This document shows, one piece after another, positions 1,370-8,428 of a stretch of 22,451 nt of DNA. A program made the position numbers and the translations under genes. Position 1 is the stretch's first letter, and each line of letters starts with the position of its first letter. The stretch is from a virus. The notes beneath the pieces were generated by a model that was given only the letters and a program-made list of their open reading frames with translations, was not told the DNA's origin and made no database searches. The DNA lies in IMG/VR virus record IMGVR_UViG_3300032084_001105, positions 1 through 22,451 of that record; one strand, written 5' to 3'.

Positions 1370-1508
1370 ATTACCTAATTTTGAACTAGATATAAAGTTC
1401 CTGTTGTTGCGTGAGCAGATGAATGACAAGACTATGAACGAGAAACAAAAAGCAGTATTAAAAAAACATCATAAAAAAATGGAACAAATCAGTAAAACGG
1501 AAGTATAA
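1359..1508 (+). CDS. Hypothetical basic protein, 49 aa
   Basis: Start chosen at ATG 1359 because an AAGGA-type site (AAAAAGGAAAAG) lies just upstream. A longer frame from 1299 would run through the coding region of the preceding zinc-ribbon gene and has no ribosome site. The product is strongly basic and helical, with a Lys/His-rich C-terminal half (KKHHKKMEQ). No family is recognised. The last codons and the stop (GTA TAA) are part of a promoter-like sequence at 1479-1510 that faces the next gene. Confidence 0.6.
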   Translation: MRNKLPNFELDIKFLLLREQMNDKTMNEKQKAVLKKHHKKMEQISKTEV

Positions 1509-1510
1509 TA
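1479..1510 (+). promoter_or_regulatory. Promoter-like element, family copy 1
   Basis: TGGAAC begins at 1480 and GTATAATA at 1503, a 23-base start-to-start distance shared with three other sites in the window. The -10-like TATAAT overlaps the stop codon of the gene ending at 1508. The downstream ATG (1538) is 28 bases after the TATAAT. Bases between the boxes are A-rich (CAAATCAGTAAAACGG). Confidence 0.6.
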
Positions 1511-1537
1511 AGTAAGAAAATAAAACGGAGTGTTAAA

Positions 1538-1750
1538 ATGAATAAAGAACAAACTCTTAAAAAAAAACAAAAACAATTATTAAGTAGTTGTGATATATGC
1601 AAAAAAAATGGATCATTTAATGCTAGTGATTTTGAAAAAAACGGATTATATGGTTTCATAGGATTTTCTAGGGATCAATTAAACGAACTTGAACTAAGTC
1701 ATTTAAATGAAGATTCTATAAGATGCGAACAATGTTTAATGATAAAATAA
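1538..1750 (+). CDS. Zinc-ribbon-like protein, 70 aa
   Basis: ATG 1538 follows CGGAGTGTTAAA and lies just downstream of promoter-like copy 1. CxxC pairs at residues 18-21 (CDIC) and 63-66 (CEQC) bracket a 41-residue middle part with a YGFIGFSRDQL segment, so a single zinc site formed by the two ends is likely. The N-terminus is Lys-rich. No specific family or enzymatic motif is recognised. The next gene follows after 14 bases with its own AAAGGAG site. Confidence 0.7.
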   Translation: MNKEQTLKKKQKQLLSSCDICKKNGSFNASDFEKNGLYGFIGFSRDQLNELELSHLNEDSIRCEQCLMIK

Positions 1751-1764
1751 AAAGGAGTGTAAAA

Positions 1765-1986
1765 ATGGTATCAGATAAAGATATATATAAATTACTAGGT
1801 AAAAGAAAAATAAAATCTATCTTACGTAGGTGGGTAGTTGATCAGGTTAATGTTAGTTTAGAAATGAAAAATTCTCATATTTCTTTTGATTCAACTATTG
1901 ACGGTTACGGATTGCCTAAAAATTATGATGAAGATCATGATTATTTAGTAGATGAATTATTTGAATTTGTAGGTAATAAAATATAG
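1765..1986 (+). CDS. Hypothetical protein, 73 aa
   Basis: Start chosen at ATG 1765, preceded by AAAAAGGAGTGTAAAA. A longer frame from 1723 would overlap the upstream gene and lacks a ribosome site. The product has a basic N-terminal half (KRKIKSILRRW) and an acidic C-terminal half (DEDHDYLVDELFEF). There are no cysteines and no membrane segment, and I do not recognise it. Its stop at 1986 is directly followed by the structured element at 1997-2068. Confidence 0.65.
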   Translation: MVSDKDIYKLLGKRKIKSILRRWVVDQVNVSLEMKNSHISFDSTIDGYGLPKNYDEDHDYLVDELFEFVGNKI

Positions 1987-1996
1987 AATTAGTTGA

Positions 1997-2068
1997 AGGT
2001 GGGGACATTAGAAAGACTAACGAACTAACTAAGTTTGGTAATATTATTAACTTTCGACCTCCTCACCT
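1997..2068 (+). ncRNA. Candidate structured RNA element with SD-like arm paired to an anti-SD-like arm
   Basis: AGGTGGGGA (1997-2005) can pair with TCCTCACCT (2060-2068): nine pairs, one of them G-U. Inside it, GAAAG (2011-2015) pairs with CTTTC (2051-2055). The right arm sits in ACCTCCTCACCT, which resembles the anti-SD end of 16S rRNA, and the left arm resembles a Shine-Dalgarno site. The RNA could therefore hide a ribosome site in cis. It occupies most of the 109-base gap between the genes at 1765 and 2096. A similar layout occurs at 6232-6318. Structure is read by eye only. Confidence 0.4.
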
Positions 2069-2096
2069 GAAGCTATATAAAAAAGTAGGTAAATAA
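2007..2096 (+). CDS. Possible 29-aa microprotein with non-canonical ATT start
   Basis: The only long open frame in this gap runs from 1980 and ends at TAA 2094-2096, overlapping the next start as TAATG. It contains no ATG, GTG or TTG start. An ATT at 2007 lies a few bases after AAGGTGGGG. The peptide looks protein-like (a TNELTKFGN stretch, then NFRPPHLKLYKK). ATT starts are known but rare, as in infC. The frame could be chance or a side effect of a conserved RNA structure; I rate it as a candidate only. Confidence 0.22.
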   Translation: MRKTNELTKFGNIINFRPPHLKLYKKVGK

Positions 2097-2101
2097 TGAA
2101 A
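2085..2101 (+). repeat. 17-bp repeated start-codon context, copy 2
   Basis: Identical to 1203-1219 (GTAGGTAAATAATGAAA), spanning the ribosome site and ATG of the gene at 2096. Confidence 0.6.
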
Positions 2102-2314
2102 TGGGTAATTGAACAACTAAATAAAGGTTATGTAAATAACGAAGCTAAGGGACGGAGTCAGCATACCAAACAAACTAGACATTTAAAGTACTGTAAACAG
2201 TGTAAATTAGTCTTTCAAAAAGATACGATGTATAAAGTACAACTATATTATGAACATATGCCAACGTACAAACTGCCTAGGGAAACGTGTAAAAAATGCA
2301 AGGGGAAAAAATGA
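2096..2314 (+). CDS. Zinc-ribbon-like basic protein, 72 aa
   Basis: ATG 2096 lies in the 17-bp repeated start context. The protein is basic, with CxxC pairs at residues 33-36 (CKQC) and 65-68 (CKKC), consistent with one zinc ribbon, and a His/Lys/Arg-rich N-terminal third that could contact nucleic acid (inference). It ends at TGA 2312-2314, overlapping the next ATG as ATGA, so translation is probably coupled. No specific family is recognised. Confidence 0.7.
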   Translation: MKWVIEQLNKGYVNNEAKGRSQHTKQTRHLKYCKQCKLVFQKDTMYKVQLYYEHMPTYKLPRETCKKCKGKK

Positions 2315-2502
2315 TATTATTTTTATTATCTCAGTTAGGAAACAAGATACAGAGTATCTACTCATTAACAGAAGGTGTAAACGAGGATATGAGTAAAAAA
2401 GAATTGATCAGTATTATTAACGATATTTCAGGAGACGTAGAAAATCTCAGGGAGGATCTAGCATATATTATGCGAAAGAAGAAGTATTTTAGAAGTGTCT
2501 AA
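2311..2502 (+). CDS. Hypothetical helical protein, 63 aa
   Basis: Start chosen at ATG 2311: it forms an ATGA overlap with the previous stop and follows AAGGGGAAAAA. An upstream in-frame ATG at 2296 has no comparable site. The product has a short hydrophobic N-terminal stretch (MILFLLSQL), then amphipathic acidic helices ending in a basic tail (RKKKYF). It may be soluble and helical or weakly membrane-associated. I do not recognise the family. It overlaps the next gene by 8 bases. Confidence 0.65.
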   Translation: MILFLLSQLGNKIQSIYSLTEGVNEDMSKKELISIINDISGDVENLREDLAYIMRKKKYFRSV

Positions 2503-2854
2503 TTTAAAAATAGCTAAAGAGATCATAAGTCAATATGGCTTAGAAAGTAAAGTAACTTACACAAATAAATGTAACTTAGGCAGGTATGTACCTGAAACAG
2601 ATACTATTTACATTTCTAGAAATTATACTAGTTTTGATGAATTATTAATGACAATAGTACACGAAATAAAACACGCATTAGACTGCTTAAAACTAGGAAG
2701 GCGTAAGTACATTAAGAAATACAATCAGGCGAGTAATTTGGCTATAAATCAAGGCTTAGACCCCTATGTTTATAACAAGTGGGAGATCAAGGCAGAGAGG
2801 TACGCAGAAAATAATTATAAAAAGTGGGAACATTTAATAAAACAGAGTGTATAA
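2495..2854 (+). CDS. Small HExxH zinc metallopeptidase (ImmA/IrrE-like), 119 aa
   Basis: The protein carries HEIKH at residues 56-60 in the context TIVHEIKHALD, and a downstream helix WEIKAERYAE with Glu97 as a likely third zinc ligand. This is the HExxH...E arrangement of gluzincins such as ImmA/IrrE-type proteases. ImmA/IrrE proteins cleave phage or stress repressors, but members also occur as stand-alone phage genes of unknown target. The protein is near-minimal and has no fused helix-turn-helix domain. GTG 2495 is the only early start and overlaps the previous stop; its ribosome site is weak (AAGAAG). The 3' end carries promoter-like copy 2. SprT-like or other small metalloproteases are alternatives. 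The protease fold is fairly sure; the target is unknown. Confidence 0.7.
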   Translation: MSNLKIAKEIISQYGLESKVTYTNKCNLGRYVPETDTIYISRNYTSFDELLMTIVHEIKHALDCLKLGRRKYIKKYNQASNLAINQGLDPYVYNKWEIKAERYAENNYKKWEHLIKQSV

Positions 2855-2856
2855 CA
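2825..2856 (+). promoter_or_regulatory. Promoter-like element, family copy 2
   Basis: GGGAAC starts at 2826 and GTATAACA at 2849, again 23 bases apart. The -10-like TATAAC includes the TAA stop of the metallopeptidase gene. The next start chosen (ATG 2883) is 27 bases after it. This is the weakest of the four copies, with G for T at the first -35 base and C for T in the -10. Confidence 0.5.
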
Positions 2857-2882
2857 ATAAACAAAACGAATGGAGTGAAGTA

Positions 2883-3158
2883 ATGAATATATTATATAAA
2901 ATGGTTGATCCTGATAACATCTTTGGATTTAACTACATACTAGAAAATAAAGATTATTACATAGATATATCTTGTGAGAATTATGAGAATAGTGACTGGA
3001 TAAGGAATATTTACGTCAATGAAAAAACGCATCCTGAGGATGATGATATGATAGAAAGACAGATTGTACTTGGTGAAAGTTATGAAGTTGTTATGGTAAC
3101 GAATAAAGATATAAAACTAATAAAAAACTGTAGGATTTCTTATTATAGTGAAAATTAA
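2883..3158 (+). CDS. Hypothetical acidic protein, 91 aa
   Basis: Start chosen at ATG 2883 because TGGAG lies 8 bases upstream and promoter-like copy 2 would place the transcript start after the alternative GTG at 2847. The product is acidic, beta-rich and aromatic (IFGFNYILENKDYYIDI; DWIRNIYVN), with two cysteines and no CxxC pair. No family is recognised. It is followed by promoter-like copy 3 in a 66-base gap. Confidence 0.65.
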   Translation: MNILYKMVDPDNIFGFNYILENKDYYIDISCENYENSDWIRNIYVNEKTHPEDDDMIERQIVLGESYEVVMVTNKDIKLIKNCRISYYSEN

Positions 3159-3159
3159 T

Positions 3160-3191
3160 TTGGAACTTTTTAAAAAGCTATGCGTATAATA
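3160..3191 (+). promoter_or_regulatory. Promoter-like element, family copy 3
   Basis: TTGGAAC at 3160-3166, then TTTTTAAAAAG, then TGCGTATAATA at 3181-3191. It is almost the same as copy 4 (5753-5784), sharing TTGGAAC, TTAAAAAG and TGCGTATAATA at identical spacing. It lies in a true intergenic gap and rules out an ATG at 3180 as start, since transcription would begin near 3197. Confidence 0.7.
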
Positions 3192-3224
3192 AGAAACGAA
3201 GCGAATAAAAAAAGGAGTAGTGAA

Positions 3225-3587
3225 GTGAATAATAAAAGAGTGGCATATGAATGGAGTGTATTAAGCTATGTTGGAGGTATTGAAAATAGTTATGATGCTG
3301 ATCCTGTATTTAGTGATGATTTAAAAAGCCTTGGCTTAGAGACCCTAAATAGATTTGTAAAATCTAAGACATTTACAGGAGCAAAGTTAATTAGCAAAGA
3401 TTCAGATAATAACAATGATGTATATGGAGATTTAGAAATTAAGATCTGGAAGTTTATAAATGATGAATGGGATTTTGATTATGCTAGGGTAGATGACAAT
3501 GGGACAATACAAAAATCTACTTGGTATAATTGGAAAGTCCCTAATAAGTATCAAGTTGAGTTAAACCAATGTATAAAAAGGAGTTGA
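3225..3587 (+). CDS. Hypothetical protein, 120 aa
   Basis: Start chosen at GTG 3225, preceded by AAAAAGGAGTAGTGAA and placed 34 bases after promoter-like copy 3. An in-frame ATG at 3180 lies inside that promoter, ahead of the predicted transcript start. The product is acidic, with aromatic beta-type segments (DLEIKIWKFINDEWDFDY and STWYNWKVPNKYQ) that suggest a small beta-rich domain. There are no zinc motifs and no membrane segment. I do not recognise the family. The next gene follows after three bases with its own AAAAGGAG site. Confidence 0.7.
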   Translation: MNNKRVAYEWSVLSYVGGIENSYDADPVFSDDLKSLGLETLNRFVKSKTFTGAKLISKDSDNNNDVYGDLEIKIWKFINDEWDFDYARVDDNGTIQKSTWYNWKVPNKYQVELNQCIKRS

Positions 3588-3590
3588 GCA

Positions 3591-3818
3591 ATGACAACAG
3601 ATAGAGATATGATGTTAGATGAACTAGCAGATGACGTGTTCCCTGATCTAATTGATTTGATATATGATAGGAATTTCTACGATGAATACATAAAGAAAGC
3701 TATTGAGGAGGAGATGATCCACGCATACGATATTACTTACAGAGATGCGAAAGATCTTTCCTATTCTTTTAGACATAAGTTAATGAGTATAATAAGTAAG
3801 GGGGTGAAAGATGTTTAG
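3591..3818 (+). CDS. Hypothetical acidic helical protein, 75 aa
   Basis: ATG 3591 follows AAAAAGGAGTTGAGCA. The product is strongly acidic in its first half (LDELADDVFPDLIDLIYD) and helical throughout, with no cysteine and no membrane segment. A small acidic phage protein could act as a decoy or inhibitor, but no motif shows this. It overlaps the next start by 8 bases. Confidence 0.7.
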   Translation: MTTDRDMMLDELADDVFPDLIDLIYDRNFYDEYIKKAIEEEMIHAYDITYRDAKDLSYSFRHKLMSIISKGVKDV

Positions 3819-4056
3819 TCCTTGTTGTCAGTCAGTTGCCTATGATGATTACATTACAGAAGATGGTTGGGGTAGGTGTCTAGAATGTATGGAGCCTGTT
3901 GAGTATCCTATAGAGCATACTCACCAAGAGTATTGGGATTGTGAGTGTGAACAGAACTACATTCACAGTAAATATCACAAGACTTCCTGTGATATATGCG
4001 ACACCAATATGGAAGATCAACCAGATTCAATGAGAAGTGAGGTTGCTAAATGTTAA
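3811..4056 (+). CDS. Double zinc-ribbon-like protein, 81 aa
   Basis: ATG 3811 follows AAGGGGGTGAAAG. The protein is Cys/His-rich: CC at residues 5-6 with CxxC at 23-26 would make one knuckle, and CxC at 44-46 with CxxC at 60-63 a second; His52 and His56 lie between. Overall it is acidic. It looks like two tandem zinc ribbons or a small treble-clef-like domain. No specific family is recognised. It overlaps the next membrane microprotein gene. Confidence 0.7.
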   Translation: MFSPCCQSVAYDDYITEDGWGRCLECMEPVEYPIEHTHQEYWDCECEQNYIHSKYHKTSCDICDTNMEDQPDSMRSEVAKC

Positions 4057-4124
4057 GTGCAATATTATTTTTTGTTGTAGGTATTATGATTTTAGTTTAC
4101 TATAAAGCAAAGGAGACAAGATGA
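4050..4124 (+). CDS. Single-pass membrane microprotein, 24 aa
   Basis: ATG 4050 overlaps the previous stop and has GTGAGG 7 bases upstream. After MLSAIL the peptide is one unbroken hydrophobic segment (FFVVGIMILVYY) followed by the basic tail KAKETR, as in single-pass proteins with a cytoplasmic C-terminus. It ends in an ATGA overlap with the next gene. It is very short, but the gap of 64 bases, ribosome site, both overlaps and the clear membrane pattern support it. Confidence 0.6.
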   Translation: MLSAILFFVVGIMILVYYKAKETR

Positions 4125-4477
4125 AGTCTGAAAAATATAAAGAGTTTAGAGAAGCATTTATTAAGAGAACATTTGACTTAAGTGATGCAAAAAGAATTGA
4201 ATATACAGAAGGGAATCAGGACATAGATGTTCATACTAATTTTAAAAGAATTGGAAACGAGTTAGGTCTTAGTCCTGTTAAGGTGTTAGCCGTCTATCTG
4301 GTAAAACATATCAAGTCTTTACTCACCTTTTTTAAGTTAGGTAGAACCTTTAGCAATGAAACTTTAGAGTCTAGGGTTTCTGATATTGTTAATTACCTGA
4401 TACTGCTTTTATCTTACCTACATCACGAAGAGGTAAAAGATCGTGACGATAGACCTGAGAAAAGATCACAAGGATAA
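4121..4477 (+). CDS. DUF1599-like protein, 118 aa
   Basis: ATG 4121 follows AAAGGAGACAAG. Helical protein with Asn40-Phe41 in a VHTNFKRIG context, KHIKSL at 62-67, and a SRVSDIVNYLILL segment at 84-96. This pattern matches my recollection of DUF1599, also called nucleotide modification associated domain 1, which is common in phages and has no proven reaction. The C-terminal tail is charged (KDRDDRPEKRSQG). It sits between membrane microprotein genes, which tells little about its role. A MazG-like all-alpha protein is an alternative. Confidence 0.55.
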   Translation: MKSEKYKEFREAFIKRTFDLSDAKRIEYTEGNQDIDVHTNFKRIGNELGLSPVKVLAVYLVKHIKSLLTFFKLGRTFSNETLESRVSDIVNYLILLLSYLHHEEVKDRDDRPEKRSQG

Positions 4478-4489
4478 GGAAACAAGGAA

Positions 4490-4618
4490 ATGATTATGTA
4501 TTATATTATAGAAGTTTTACAGACCCAAGCATTTGATACGATTATACAAACTATAATGTGGGCATCCTTATGGGTGTTTGTTATTATCAGGTTGGATAGA
4601 ATAGAAAAGAAGTTGTAG
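4490..4618 (+). CDS. Single-pass membrane microprotein, 42 aa
   Basis: ATG 4490 has AAGGA nine bases upstream. The start is supported by a near-copy of its leader (GAAACAAGGAAATGATTAT) at the gene at 4666. The peptide has an amphipathic N-terminal part, a hydrophobic segment near residues 18-34 (TIIQTIMWASLWVFVII) and a basic tail (RLDRIEKKL), giving one likely membrane helix with a cytoplasmic C-terminus. The function is unknown. Confidence 0.6.
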   Translation: MIMYYIIEVLQTQAFDTIIQTIMWASLWVFVIIRLDRIEKKL

Positions 4619-4665
4619 TGGGTCAGGTAAAGATTATAAAAGAAACCAAACAGGGGAAACAAGAA

Positions 4666-4818
4666 ATGATTATCGTAACTATTTCAGACTGGATTATAAA
4701 GTTTATTGCATTTGCATTTGGTATGTTGGAACTAGCATTTGCTATGTTTTTATTTGTGTTTAGTTTTACATTATTTTGCTTTATTATGTACACGATTGTG
4801 GATTACTTTACATCATGA
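4666..4818 (+). CDS. Hydrophobic membrane microprotein, 50 aa
   Basis: Start chosen at ATG 4666, preceded by AGGGGAAACAAGAA, which matches the leader of the gene at 4490. A GTG at 4618 overlapping the previous stop (TAGTG) would add a 16-residue polar extension, but the duplicated leader favours 4666. Nearly the whole product after residue 9 is hydrophobic and Phe-rich, probably one long or two short membrane helices. The stop overlaps the next ATG as ATGA. A holin or superinfection-exclusion role is conceivable, but no motif shows it. Confidence 0.6.
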   Translation: MIIVTISDWIIKFIAFAFGMLELAFAMFLFVFSFTLFCFIMYTIVDYFTS

Positions 4819-5000
4819 AATGTTGGCATTGCAATACAGAATTAATATGGGGTGGAGACTTTACTTATGAAGACTATGGTCTTGAGGACGAAGGTATCGT
4901 AAGTAACCTATCTTGCCCAAATGATTTATGCGAAGCCTATGTAGAAGTGTACTTAAAGCTTAAAGATGATGATGAAGAAGATAATAGCGAAGAGAATTGA
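4815..5000 (+). CDS. Zinc-ribbon protein with CWHC motif, 61 aa
   Basis: Start chosen at ATG 4815 (ATGA overlap); a longer frame from 4776 runs through the membrane gene. CWHC at residues 3-6 and Cys34/Cys39 form a likely zinc site. Between them is ELIWGGDFTYEDYGLEDEG, a stretch I recall from small proteins found widely in tailed phages. The C-terminus is a run of Asp/Glu. The family appears common, but its function is unknown to me. Confidence 0.7.
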   Translation: MKCWHCNTELIWGGDFTYEDYGLEDEGIVSNLSCPNDLCEAYVEVYLKLKDDDEEDNSEEN

Positions 5001-5199
5001 TTACGTTGAGTGCAAACACTGTAAAACAAATACAGACTGCTCTCTTATAGATATGGATCGATCTGTGTGTTACGACTGTATTGTACGAATGAGATTCCGT
5101 AGAGAAATAGAGAAAGAACAAGAGGAATATCCTACGATAAGTAAAAAGGATTTTATAGATCTGTTAATGATTTTACGAGAAGGTCAAGATCCTTGTTAA
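4966..5199 (+). CDS. Zinc-ribbon-like protein, 77 aa
   Basis: CxxC pairs at residues 16-19 (CKHC) and 35-38 (CYDC), with Cys25 between, form a zinc-ribbon-like core. After this comes a charged helix (RFRREIEKEQEEY) and a hydrophobic C-terminal helix (DFIDLLMILRE). The start is uncertain: three consecutive ATGs at 4966-4974 overlap the previous gene by up to 35 bases and lack a good ribosome site. The coding frame itself is well supported by the Cys pattern. Confidence 0.65.
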   Translation: MMMKKIIAKRIDYVECKHCKTNTDCSLIDMDRSVCYDCIVRMRFRREIEKEQEEYPTISKKDFIDLLMILREGQDPC

Positions 5200-5269
5200 T
5201 AATTTACTATGAATTCTAATACTATTTTTTTATATTTAAGGAATCGAAATTACATATTCAGGAGTGATT

Positions 5270-5773
5270 ATGAAGGTGTGTTCTACTTGCAAAGAAAGTA
5301 AACCTAAAAGAGACTTTTATGTAAATAGGGCTAAGAAAGATGGTCGTCAGTATTTCTGTAAAAAATGTCAAAACGATTATCATAACAACAAGTGGTATAA
5401 GAAAAAAAAAGTAGAAAGAGTTCAACAGGTAAAGGAATATAAGTTACACAAAAAAAGAGTTAATTACAGAAAAGTTATTAAAGATTATTTTTCTAAAGGA
5501 TGTATTGACTGTGGGGAGATGGATATTAGAGTGTTAGAGTTTGATCACGTTAGGGGTGTTAAAAAACGATTTAAACATAGAAGAGGAGAGGGCGTGTCTT
5601 TTTTATTGATGAATGGATATAATTGGGAAACTATCAAGAAGGAAATAGATAAATGCGAAGTCAGGTGTTGTAATTGTCACAAGTTAAGAACCTACGAGCA
5701 ATTTAATTATCTGAGAGACATGAGAGATATTACAGAAGAATATTTTAATAAATTGGAACAAATTAAAAAGTAG
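5270..5773 (+). CDS. HNH endonuclease with N-terminal zinc finger, 167 aa
   Basis: Start chosen at ATG 5270, five bases after AGGAG; an in-frame GTG at 5264 overlaps that site. CxxC pairs at residues 4-7 and 30-33 form an N-terminal zinc finger, a type seen in several phage HNH proteins. A Lys/Arg-rich linker follows. The HNH core has CIDC (78-81), EFDH with Asp92-His93, and CEVRCCNCHKLRT (129-141) with His137 near the usual metal-binding position. It cuts or nicks DNA; in phages such genes are often free-standing homing endonucleases, or assist packaging. Isolation among tiny genes, away from terminase, favours the homing type (inference). The 3' end carries promoter-like copy 4. Confidence 0.85.
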   Translation: MKVCSTCKESKPKRDFYVNRAKKDGRQYFCKKCQNDYHNNKWYKKKKVERVQQVKEYKLHKKRVNYRKVIKDYFSKGCIDCGEMDIRVLEFDHVRGVKKRFKHRRGEGVSFLLMNGYNWETIKKEIDKCEVRCCNCHKLRTYEQFNYLRDMRDITEEYFNKLEQIKK

Positions 5774-5784
5774 TGCGTATAATA
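5753..5784 (+). promoter_or_regulatory. Promoter-like element, family copy 4
   Basis: TTGGAAC at 5753-5759, TTAAAAAG at 5763-5770, TGCGTATAATA at 5774-5784. It overlaps the last codons and stop of the HNH gene. The next start, ATG 5811, is 27 bases after TATAAT. With copy 3 it gives the clearest consensus: TTGGAA and TATAAT with a 19-base spacer. Confidence 0.7.
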
Positions 5785-5810
5785 CTTATAACCAATAACA
5801 AAGGAAAGCA

Positions 5811-6011
5811 ATGTACACAGCATTAAAAGAATTAATTACGTTACTTGAAAGAGACGTTGAATACGCAAAGGATGACTTTCATCAAGATCAAGGGGAGTAT
5901 TATCATCTTGGTAGAGTAGAGGGTCTAACAAAGGCTCTTAATTATGTGCTTAAAGCTCAGGCTAAGGAATTAACTGAGTTGGATAAATGGGCACAATCAT
6001 ATAACAAATAG
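5811..6011 (+). CDS. Hypothetical helical protein, 66 aa
   Basis: ATG 5811 follows AAAGGAAAGCA and lies 27 bases downstream of promoter-like copy 4. The product is a mixed-charge, probably two-helix protein (LKELITLLERDVEYAKDD, then RVEGLTKALNYVLKAQAKEL). There are no cysteines and no membrane segment. No family is recognised. A second small gene follows after 12 bases. Confidence 0.7.
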   Translation: MYTALKELITLLERDVEYAKDDFHQDQGEYYHLGRVEGLTKALNYVLKAQAKELTELDKWAQSYNK

Positions 6012-6231: not shown

Positions 6232-6318
6232 TTAAGGGCGAGGTTATGAACTGGTTTGTTATATTCCTATTCTTCCAGTTCAACCACAACTACACTCACT
6301 CCGCATCCTCGCCCTTAA
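6232..6318 (+). ncRNA. Candidate structured RNA: 12-bp perfect outer stem and 8-bp inner stem
   Basis: TTAAGGGCGAGG (6232-6243) is perfectly complementary to CCTCGCCCTTAA (6307-6318). Inside, TGAACTGG (6247-6254) is perfectly complementary to CCAGTTCA (6275-6282), with a 20-base loop. The left outer arm carries an SD-like AAGGGCGAGG just before an ATG at 6246, and the inner stem includes part of that start codon. No T-run follows, so a standard terminator is unlikely. Possible roles are translational control of the enclosed short frame, an attenuator before the nuclease gene, or a protein-binding site. The pairing is certain on paper; the role is not known. Confidence 0.55.
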
Positions 6319-6326
6319 ACTTTTAA
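6246..6326 (+). CDS. Possible 26-aa hydrophobic microprotein inside the structured element
   Basis: ATG 6246 is preceded by AAGGGCGAGGTT and runs 26 codons to TAA at 6324. The N-terminal half is hydrophobic (MNWFVIFLFFQF); the rest is polar with His, Asn and Ser. Its ribosome site and start lie in two stems, so expression would need the RNA to open. It could be a leader peptide or chance. No family is recognised. Confidence 0.35.
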   Translation: MNWFVIFLFFQFNHNYTHSASSPLNF

Positions 6327-6338
6327 AGGAAACCCCCT

Positions 6339-7064
6339 ATGAATATTGAAAAAATTTACCACGATTGGCTTAGAAAGAAGAATTCTTTACATTTTAAGAA
6401 TCGGTATCAAGGGCACGAACAATGGTTTCACGGATCTAGTGCTGGAATGTGTATGAGAAAGCATTACTTTCAACACGTTGCAGATGTACCCCCTAAAGAA
6501 ATCAATGATGATACCCTAAGATTATTTAGGTTAGGTGACTTAGTACATGGAGACATTCAAGATGCAGTTACTGAGTACGCTATTTTAAATGGAGCTCAAG
6601 TCCTTATTGAAACAGAAATAAGAATACCTGAAGTAAATGTGCGAGGTTTTTTAGATATGCTAATTATAGAAGACGGAGCATTGATCGATATTAAGACTTG
6701 CAATGCTTGGAAATGGAAAGGTTTATTTGGCCGCAATCCTGATCCTAACCCAGCCACTAATTATTATTTACAACTAGGAACTTATGGTTGGTGGTATGAA
6801 AAAGAATCTGGGAACAAATTAAAGAAATTAGCGTTACTATATTACAACAAAGATAATTCTAGGATGCGAGAGAAGGTCATTCCTGTATCTTACATAGATA
6901 AAGCAAAAGAGTATTGGCGTAATGTTAACAAGGTTTTTGAAAAAGGAAATCCACCTATAGAACTTGGAGTAGCTCCTGTATATAAGTGGGAGTGCAATGA
7001 GAAGTATTGCAACTTCTATAAGATATGTGGTGGAGGATTAAAAGAAAAAGGAGTCGATTTATGA
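6339..7064 (+). CDS. PD-(D/E)XK exonuclease, RecB/Cas4-like, with Fe-S cysteines, 241 aa
   Basis: ATG 6339 follows AAAGGAAACCCCCT. Motifs in order: Cys38 in MCMRKHYF; GDLVHGDIQ with His70; VRGFLDM with Asp106; LIDIKT with Asp117 and Lys119; and QLGTY near residue 147. The C-terminal Cys219, Cys224 and Cys230 would complete a 4Fe-4S cluster with Cys38, as in Cas4 and AddB-type nucleases. The family resects DNA ends, mostly with metal ions at the Asp/Asp/Lys site. Next to a DUF669-like ssDNA-binding candidate it probably supplies the exonuclease of a phage recombination or replication-fork repair system. It overlaps the next gene as ATGA. The fold assignment is strong; the exact substrate is inferred. 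Confidence 0.85.
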   Translation: MNIEKIYHDWLRKKNSLHFKNRYQGHEQWFHGSSAGMCMRKHYFQHVADVPPKEINDDTLRLFRLGDLVHGDIQDAVTEYAILNGAQVLIETEIRIPEVNVRGFLDMLIIEDGALIDIKTCNAWKWKGLFGRNPDPNPATNYYLQLGTYGWWYEKESGNKLKKLALLYYNKDNSRMREKVIPVSYIDKAKEYWRNVNKVFEKGNPPIELGVAPVYKWECNEKYCNFYKICGGGLKEKGVDL

Positions 7065-7469: not shown

Positions 7470-7940
7470 ATGGATGACTTTGGAGATGCTTATTACCCTT
7501 TTGACGATGAATCAGATCGTAAGTCTTTACCTAAGGGTAGGTATACAGCTACTATTATTAATCTTGAGATCTCTAAAGATGTTAGGTTTGGTAGCTACAT
7601 TGCCGATGTATTTAAACCAGAGTACTTAATAGATGTTACAGAACACCCTGCTTATGAAGACGTTATTGTAAAGGATGATGGTATCTTTAGGTATAAAGAA
7701 GTAGAAGGTATGAAATACGAACATAAGAAAAACTGGGGATTTGCGAAGTTTATATCTATGATGAAGATAGGTAAGAGGGGTAATCAATTGCCCTTCTTAT
7801 CTTTATCTAGCATAAGAAAATCAAGAGTGCTGATCGATGTCTTTATTAAAAAGTTTTATAACGACTTAGACTCAGAAGTAAACTATCCAGTAGCTAGGGC
7901 TATTCAATTACTAGAAAAGAAACTGGATACTCCTTTCTAA
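7470..7940 (+). CDS. DUF669-like phage ssDNA-binding candidate, 156 aa
   Basis: ATG 7470 is one base after the previous stop, with only a weak ribosome site, so coupling is likely. The N-terminus is acidic (MDDFGDAYYPFDDESD), followed by LPKGRYTATIINLEIS, a start pattern typical of DUF669 phage proteins, which are thought to bind ssDNA. The final residues KKLDTPF resemble the acidic PF tail by which SSBs recruit partners, although fewer acidic residues are present. It sits between two nuclease genes. Family assignment is by pattern only. It overlaps the next gene as TAATG. Confidence 0.5.
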   Translation: MDDFGDAYYPFDDESDRKSLPKGRYTATIINLEISKDVRFGSYIADVFKPEYLIDVTEHPAYEDVIVKDDGIFRYKEVEGMKYEHKKNWGFAKFISMMKIGKRGNQLPFLSLSSIRKSRVLIDVFIKKFYNDLDSEVNYPVARAIQLLEKKLDTPF

Positions 7941-8428
7941 TGAAGTTAGATATTAACACTGAGAAAGGACAATCCTCATTGAGATATGAGAAGAAGATGA
8001 TTGACAGAATTAATCATGCGATTTGTAAAAAACACAAGAACGATTCTATGTTAATAGAGACTGACAAAAGTATGGATGCTAAGATAGATGGTATCATTGT
8101 TAAAAATAATGAAGTAGCTGGGGTCTTTGAGTCTAAGTGTAGAAATTTAAGTCTAATGGAATTAAAAAGTTTTGGATCTTGGTTAGTGACTTACGATAAA
8201 ATATCAGACGGTAAGACATTATCTACTATGTTAAGAGCTCCTTTTATTGGTTTTTTATATCTGATTAAAGACGACATTATTATGTATTGGAAAATAACTG
8301 ATAAATATGGGAACTTTTTATTTGATTATGACGTTAAAGAAACAAGGACACAAAGAACAATAAATGGTGGGAGTATTATTAGAAAGAACGCTTTCCTACC
8401 TGTTAAATATGGAAACGAATTATTATGA
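7940..8428 (+). CDS. Second PD-(D/E)XK-like nuclease, 162 aa
   Basis: ATG 7940 overlaps the previous stop (TAATG). An N-terminal helix with Glu17-Lys-Lys is followed by MDAKIDGIIVKNNEVAGVFE with Asp50, then ESK with Glu64 and Lys66, fitting the PD-(D/E)XK core (D, 13 residues, E-x-K). A Trp/Tyr-rich C-terminal half follows (IMYWKITDKYGNFLFDY). The family cleaves DNA or RNA in many settings: restriction, resolvases, or phage recombination. I cannot place it in a named subfamily. It overlaps the next gene as ATGA, so it is co-translated with the module. Confidence 0.65.
   Translation: MKLDINTEKGQSSLRYEKKMIDRINHAICKKHKNDSMLIETDKSMDAKIDGIIVKNNEVAGVFESKCRNLSLMELKSFGSWLVTYDKISDGKTLSTMLRAPFIGFLYLIKDDIIMYWKITDKYGNFLFDYDVKETRTQRTINGGSIIRKNAFLPVKYGNELL

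Follow-up and report, generated by a model that had tools for sequence, protein, structure and literature searches.

Phages usually transcribe their genes with the main sigma factor of the host, or else bring a sigma factor or a polymerase of their own. The middle promoters of T4 combine a MotA box with a sigma70 -10 element, that is, a non-standard -35 region with a TATAAT-like -10, and the phiEco32-type phages possess their own extracytoplasmic function (ECF)-like sigma factor and place phage genes on ECF-type promoters. The SigW-type promoters of Bacillus carry CGTA at -10 with a 16-base spacer. The element considered here, to be compared with these systems, is a promoter family found in four copies in the early gene block of the virus record IMGVR_UViG_3300032084_001105, whose 22,451 bases are hereafter called the window (end repeats were looked for and none was found). 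Among the described ECF promoters, the hallmarks are AAC at -35 and CGT at -10, the RpoE -35 being GGAACTT (PMC8103513); sigmaE contacts -35G, -34G and -31C (PMC3397946), and micA and rybB are sigmaE promoters, the sigmaE motifs being GGAACTTTT and GTCAAA (PMC1804206). With a probability of roughly 0.6, the phage sites represent an ECF-type (RpoE/SigW-like) promoter class that would be read by the host RNA polymerase equipped with a host-encoded ECF sigma factor.

Over the whole window, GGAAC-N18-TATAAY has exactly four matches on the plus strand and none on the minus strand. A preliminary description made from the letters alone had already singled out these four sites, with coordinates two bases upstream of GGAAC, and most of its observations hold: the distance from the base preceding GGAAC to the G of GTATAA is 23 bases, GTATAAYA is present in 4/4 copies, copies 3 and 4 have TTAAAAAG and TGCG in common, and the start codons at 1538, 2883, 3225 and 5811 lie 27-34 bases downstream of the -10 box. 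Besides, the stop codon of an upstream open reading frame (ORF) does fall within the -10 of copy 1 (ORF 1299-1508) and of copy 2 (ORF 2495-2854, stop codon at 2852-2854). In dinucleotide shuffles of the early block (n=2000), the fixed-spacing motif occurred 0.0155 times on average and at most once, versus four observed, and the GTATAAYA form 0.001 times on average. The four sites are genuine and greatly exceed the chance expectation; since the pattern was chosen after the data had been seen, its relatives serve as the independent test.

With the PDDEXK nuclease gene of the window (6339-7064) as query, 65 relatives were recovered among viral contigs, at 38-100% identity, and none among about 50,000 deposited phages. 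No cultured relative was found for the nuclease or the tail protein, and only distant ones for the terminase and the portal; the phage group is known here only from environmental contigs. The motif search that the preliminary description had proposed for the relatives yielded, in these 65 loci (1.0 Mb), 78 exact motifs on the early strand versus 1 on the other. Other spacings gave 0-9 matches each, except N27 with 53, a peak that fits ...CTATATTATAAC within the nuclease gene and is shared coding sequence. In whole-record scans, motif matches occur in 15 of the 20 long relatives. Within 110 bases downstream (median 30 bases), 116 of 128 distinct sites have a sequence resembling a ribosome site and a start codon with its ORF, compared with 386 of 827 other GGAAC occurrences. 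Eight relatives carry the sites on their early strand, where they precede numerous small genes and also occur within the long divergent stretch that leads up to the first early gene. The sites of close relatives are not independent, which clustering corrects in part. There is strong support for a promoter family that is present in several copies and fixes start codons. As a separate observation, several relatives have, immediately downstream of their first early promoter of this class, a short hairpin with a T-run and then a conserved TTTTTTGACAATT (L126:1516, L125:2245, L143:1677, L164:1786, L168:2730, L169:537, L194:14058), an arrangement that might act as an attenuator or as a second promoter.

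The full consensus consists of an A/T tract, GGAACTTTT, about 12 bases, [CA]GT, ATAA and a conserved A at the expected transcription start, the distinct sites of the relatives sharing AAAAaTAAtTT-GGAAC-TTTTT-N11-[CA]GT-ATAAY-AAGTAAACAAA. Relaxing the -10 reveals many more sites, with CGTATAAG, CGTTTAAT, AGTTAAAT and similar sequences. Anchored on GGAACTTT alone, 159 distinct sites are found on the early strand versus 15 on the other, and GT stands at exactly +22/+23 in 102/159 and 2/15 of them, respectively; many of the 159 that have no GT there are visibly coding sequence. As a weight-matrix iteration drifted onto a coding look-alike at 6811, new profiles were made with noncoding sites only, after clustering at 75% identity. 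Among these, GT occupies +22 in 68 of 229 early-strand clusters versus 6-21 at other offsets, and in 10 of 75 on the other strand. It is preceded by C or A, and CGT is present in about half of the sites. In the last profile, which required GT, so that the offset comparison and not the conservation of GT itself counts as evidence, position +33 (the expected start base) is A in 79% of sites, and the last T of TATAAT is T in 43% of them (0.04 bit). In sigma70 boxes, this final T is near-invariant. The reading as a sigma70 promoter with a 19-base spacer was rejected because of this -10 profile, in which the last T is unconserved and GGAAC and GT are fixed. Nor is there a TTGACA-like -35 with a spacer of 16-18 bases: the hexamer TTGGAA, put forward in the preliminary description, is present in copies 3 and 4 only, copy 1 having ATGGAAC and copy 2 TGGGAAC, and the invariant -35 of the family is GGAAC. 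Apart from this family, a second look-alike class, TTGTGGAAC-N16 ending in GTTGGA-CGTATAATaaGG, was noticed in more GC-rich contigs (L044, L056, L064, L076, L080, L101, L050, L099).

In comparison with the described systems, the closest likeness is to the enterobacterial sigmaE promoters. The micA promoter of E. coli K-12 has the sequence TGAAC-N17-GTCTGA, and its annotated start lies 34 bases downstream of the first box base; that of rybB is AGAAC-N17-GTCTTA, with the same +34 start (offset counted by eye). Both have GT at +22/+23, and the phage register is equal to theirs; the parse of the preliminary description, sigma70-like boxes TTGGAA and TATAAT with a 19-base spacer, is therefore probably wrong, [CA]GT being the fixed part of the -10. 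The phage sites also share with these promoters the GGAACTTTT -35 and the A/T-rich upstream sequence, and the letters contacted by sigmaE are their fixed letters. GGAAC is present in all window sites, TTT comes next in most relatives, and GT or CGT lies in the -10 at one fixed distance, as in ECF promoters. However, the phage -10 is GTATAA or GTTAAA and not the enterobacterial GTCAAA or GTCTGA, for which reason the sites are called ECF-type and not RpoE promoters proper; they also differ in sitting in phage early genes, and their host need not be a gammaproteobacterium.

The other systems resemble the phage sites in part. With the T4 middle promoters they share a non-standard -35 region and a TATAAT-like -10 in a phage, but the conserved last T is absent and the class also occurs in contigs that have no similarity to the family proteins. 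As in the phiEco32-type phages, phage genes are placed on ECF-type promoters, whereas no phage-encoded sigma factor was found in 20 relatives. The CGTA and 16-base spacer of the Bacillus SigW-type promoters match the phage CGTATAAT. The SigW -35, ATTGAAACCTTT (PMC8103513), also resembles the phage AATTTGGAACTTTTT; unlike it, the phage box is GGAAC and not GAAAC, and GAAACTTT yields no aligned GT in the phages. Finally, the alphaproteobacterial EcfG general-stress promoters show a comparable GGAAC ... GTT pattern, described in Sphingomonas as GGAAC-N17-20-GTT (PMC6599016), whereas the phage spacing is single and fixed, T-rich bases follow GGAAC, and GTA is commoner than GTT.

The class extends beyond the phage group. 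In 2.9 million viral contigs, GGAACTTTT-N12-MGTATAATA has 51 matching stretches, while the N14 and N10 spacings have 4 and 5. Twenty-nine of the 51 encode relatives of the family proteins and 22 do not, kinship being judged on the fetched stretch around each match, so that distant kinship elsewhere on a contig can escape. The 22 comprise some near-identical copies and several parts of one contig, the independent lineages being fewer; a few of them (L293, L297, L298, L300) look like coding sequence, and G221 (L240), counted among the outsiders, has a portal protein similar to this group's. Two outsiders stand out most clearly, a 293-kb phage and a 102-kb contig. The former has 21 sites, all with one spacing and on one strand, the other strand having 0; its closest annotated relatives (about 35%) are huge metagenomic phages and one phage of Microcystis. 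The latter (L226-L230) has 7 sites. They read TTTGCGTATAAT, and no ribosome site is evident before the downstream genes, which may point to a Bacteroidetes-type host.

Which factor reads these sites was approached through the proteins of the phages themselves. Sigma70_r2 (PF04542) has no match in the 20 long relatives and Sigma70_r4_2 (PF08281) none over the cut-off, with one sub-threshold partial match in G019. Because no sigma-factor domain was found in these relatives, a host ECF sigma is the likeliest reader. Weak helix-turn-helix matches in G222 and G228 were rejected as sigma factors, the protein being of HNH type with a helix-turn-helix, and the match of a 117-residue early protein to a sigma factor (E-value 0.084) was judged to be noise, the relatives of this protein shrinking to 76-88 residues. 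The phage RNA polymerase profile PF00940 matched 0/20 relatives, its control also remaining without a match. In G005, the early block contains no ORF over 320 amino acids, and its early proteins of at least 150 amino acids are a DUF932, a GP88, an HNH-type protein, a PDDEXK nuclease, a second PDDEXK-like protein (below the cut-off) and one of 156 amino acids that has no family.

These data bear directly on the idea that the host polymerase is recruited to a weak -10 by a phage-encoded factor that reads GGAAC, either a MotA-like activator or a small sigma factor not recognised as such. T4 uses a phage-encoded activator in this manner, and this precedent, together with the many early proteins of 60-160 amino acids that belong to no known family, speaks in its favour. 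Nevertheless, the same promoter with the same rigid spacing recurs in contigs that show no similarity to the family proteins, the larger early proteins of G005 are mostly assigned to other families, a site already stands upstream of the first early gene, and the register is that of sigmaE promoters, which, with the negative sigma-domain search, makes such a phage factor quite improbable. The activator invoked in the preliminary description has accordingly lost ground, while its other suggestion, an altered host factor, comes near the truth if taken as an alternative host sigma factor. It is unlikely, although a little less so, that the sites are ordinary sigma70-type housekeeping promoters of a host group in which GGAAC is a typical, if unusual, -35 and TATAAT the true -10. 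Perfect TATAAT boxes do exist in many sites, and upstream A/T tracts suit any bacterial polymerase, but an unconserved last T, preceded by a GT at a single fixed offset, does not fit this view. Furthermore, the divergent or leading region of several relatives contains a near-consensus sigma70-type promoter, TTGACA-N16-TATAAA or similar, which suggests that the main sigma of the host reads ordinary boxes, and scanning for generic sigma70 promoters gave no excess in the early block (55 vs 52.7). As to chance, or the shared ancestry of a few intergenic pieces, several sites are indeed orthologous among close relatives; it is, however, barely credible in view of the spacing control over the viral contigs, where equal numbers at shifted spacings were looked for and not seen, and of the preference for GT at +22 that persists after clustering.

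Several observations weigh against a host ECF sigma as the reader. The best sites still hold a perfect sigma70 -10 (TATAAT), and the -10 differs from that of enterobacterial sigmaE. Thirteen other phage records, including T4, T7, two pelagiphages, HMO-2011, a Roseobacter phage and several Bacteroidetes phages, gave 0-4 loose matches each with no pattern, so that the class is absent from this cultured panel. Neither a host nor any host gene carrying the promoter was found. In Marinimicrobia, the only phylum with a weak host link, GGAACTT-N15-GTATAA is not enriched in 199 genomes; the reversed-pattern control differs in dinucleotides, and its excess is therefore not taken as avoidance. Relatives of the nuclease were noticed twice, in a Marinimicrobia bin and in the assembly of a single Nitrosopelagicus cell (L210, L211), on contigs that showed only phage genes. 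Given that 1/245 Marinimicrobia genomes has the nuclease and that the motif shows no enrichment there, no host is proposed from these links.

If a host ECF sigma does read the sites, the phage group, many of whose early genes stand behind a copy of this promoter, probably borrows a stress regulator of the host for its takeover genes. Transcription would begin at the conserved A that lies some 34 bases downstream of the initial G of GGAAC, and each small group of early genes would be given its own start by an ECF-type site. The near-consensus sigma70-type promoter of the leading region could start the first genes, after which infection stress on the cell envelope would free the ECF sigma and thus raise the remaining early genes. 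More tentatively, several unrelated phage lineages of uncultured bacteria, with no sigma factor of their own, might rely on host envelope-stress ECF promoters for a large share of the early or middle genes, infection stress itself acting as the switch. If true, host stress responses would be a regular on-switch for infection, common to phages that share no proteins, and GGAACTTTT-N13-GT would be a signature for grouping uncultured phages by host transcription machinery. No earlier report of such a promoter class was found in a partial collection of the literature, which is weak evidence of novelty.

The coordinates of the four copies, of the genes behind them and of two look-alikes are collected in the table. 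Copy 3 is the nearest to the family consensus and scores highest among the four; the upstream ATG at 3180 of the gene behind it sits within the promoter.

Table. Promoter copies, downstream genes and look-alikes in the window; predicted transcription starts are placed by the +34 offset seen in E. coli for micA and rybB.
Feature	Position (strand)	-35 region	-10 region	Predicted start	Remarks
Promoter copy 1	1469..1515 (+)	GGAAC 1481-1485	AGTATAAT 1502-1509	~1515	A/T tract 1469-1480; GT 1503-1504 within the -10
Promoter copy 2	2815..2861 (+)	GGAAC 2827-2831	TGTATAAC 2848-2855	~2861	
Promoter copy 3	3150..3196 (+)	AATTT-GGAACTTTTT 3162-3171	CGTATAAT 3183-3190	~3196	
Promoter copy 4	5743..5789 (+)	GGAAC 5755-5759	CGTATAAT 5776-5783	~5789	
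Gene behind copy 1	1538..1750 (+)				70 amino acids; no family
Gene behind copy 2	2883..3158 (+)				91 amino acids; no family
Gene behind copy 3	3225..3587 (+)				120 amino acids counted from GTG at 3225
Gene behind copy 4	5811..6011 (+)				66 amino acids
Look-alike GGAAC-N16-CGTT	6811..6839 (+)				within the PDDEXK nuclease gene; most likely coding sequence; left out of the promoter count
Look-alike GGAAC with GT one base farther	8310..8340 (+)				within gene 7940-8428; coding, common to relatives; left out of the count

Elsewhere in the window, a structured RNA was noticed just before the PDDEXK nuclease gene (6232-6319, plus strand) and at the corresponding position in some 20 relatives (alignment A2). 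Its fold has an energy of -28.5 kcal/mol (z -4.3), with an outer stem AAGGGCGAGG/CCTCGCCCTT, an inner stem GAACTGG/CCAGTTC and a conserved CCACAACTACAC between. According to a dedicated stem search, which leans towards finding stems, the automatic consensus fold of the alignment having failed, the relatives retain both stems through many compensatory changes, with a conserved CCACAACTACACATC between the stems. An Rfam scan of the window gave no gathering match, and a tRNA scan no tRNA. Among the proteins, a member of the Gene product 88 family (PF17338), cut by the contig end, is encoded at 1-660, and the early block also encodes a PDDEXK/Cas4-like nuclease, a RusA-like resolvase and an SSB-like protein.

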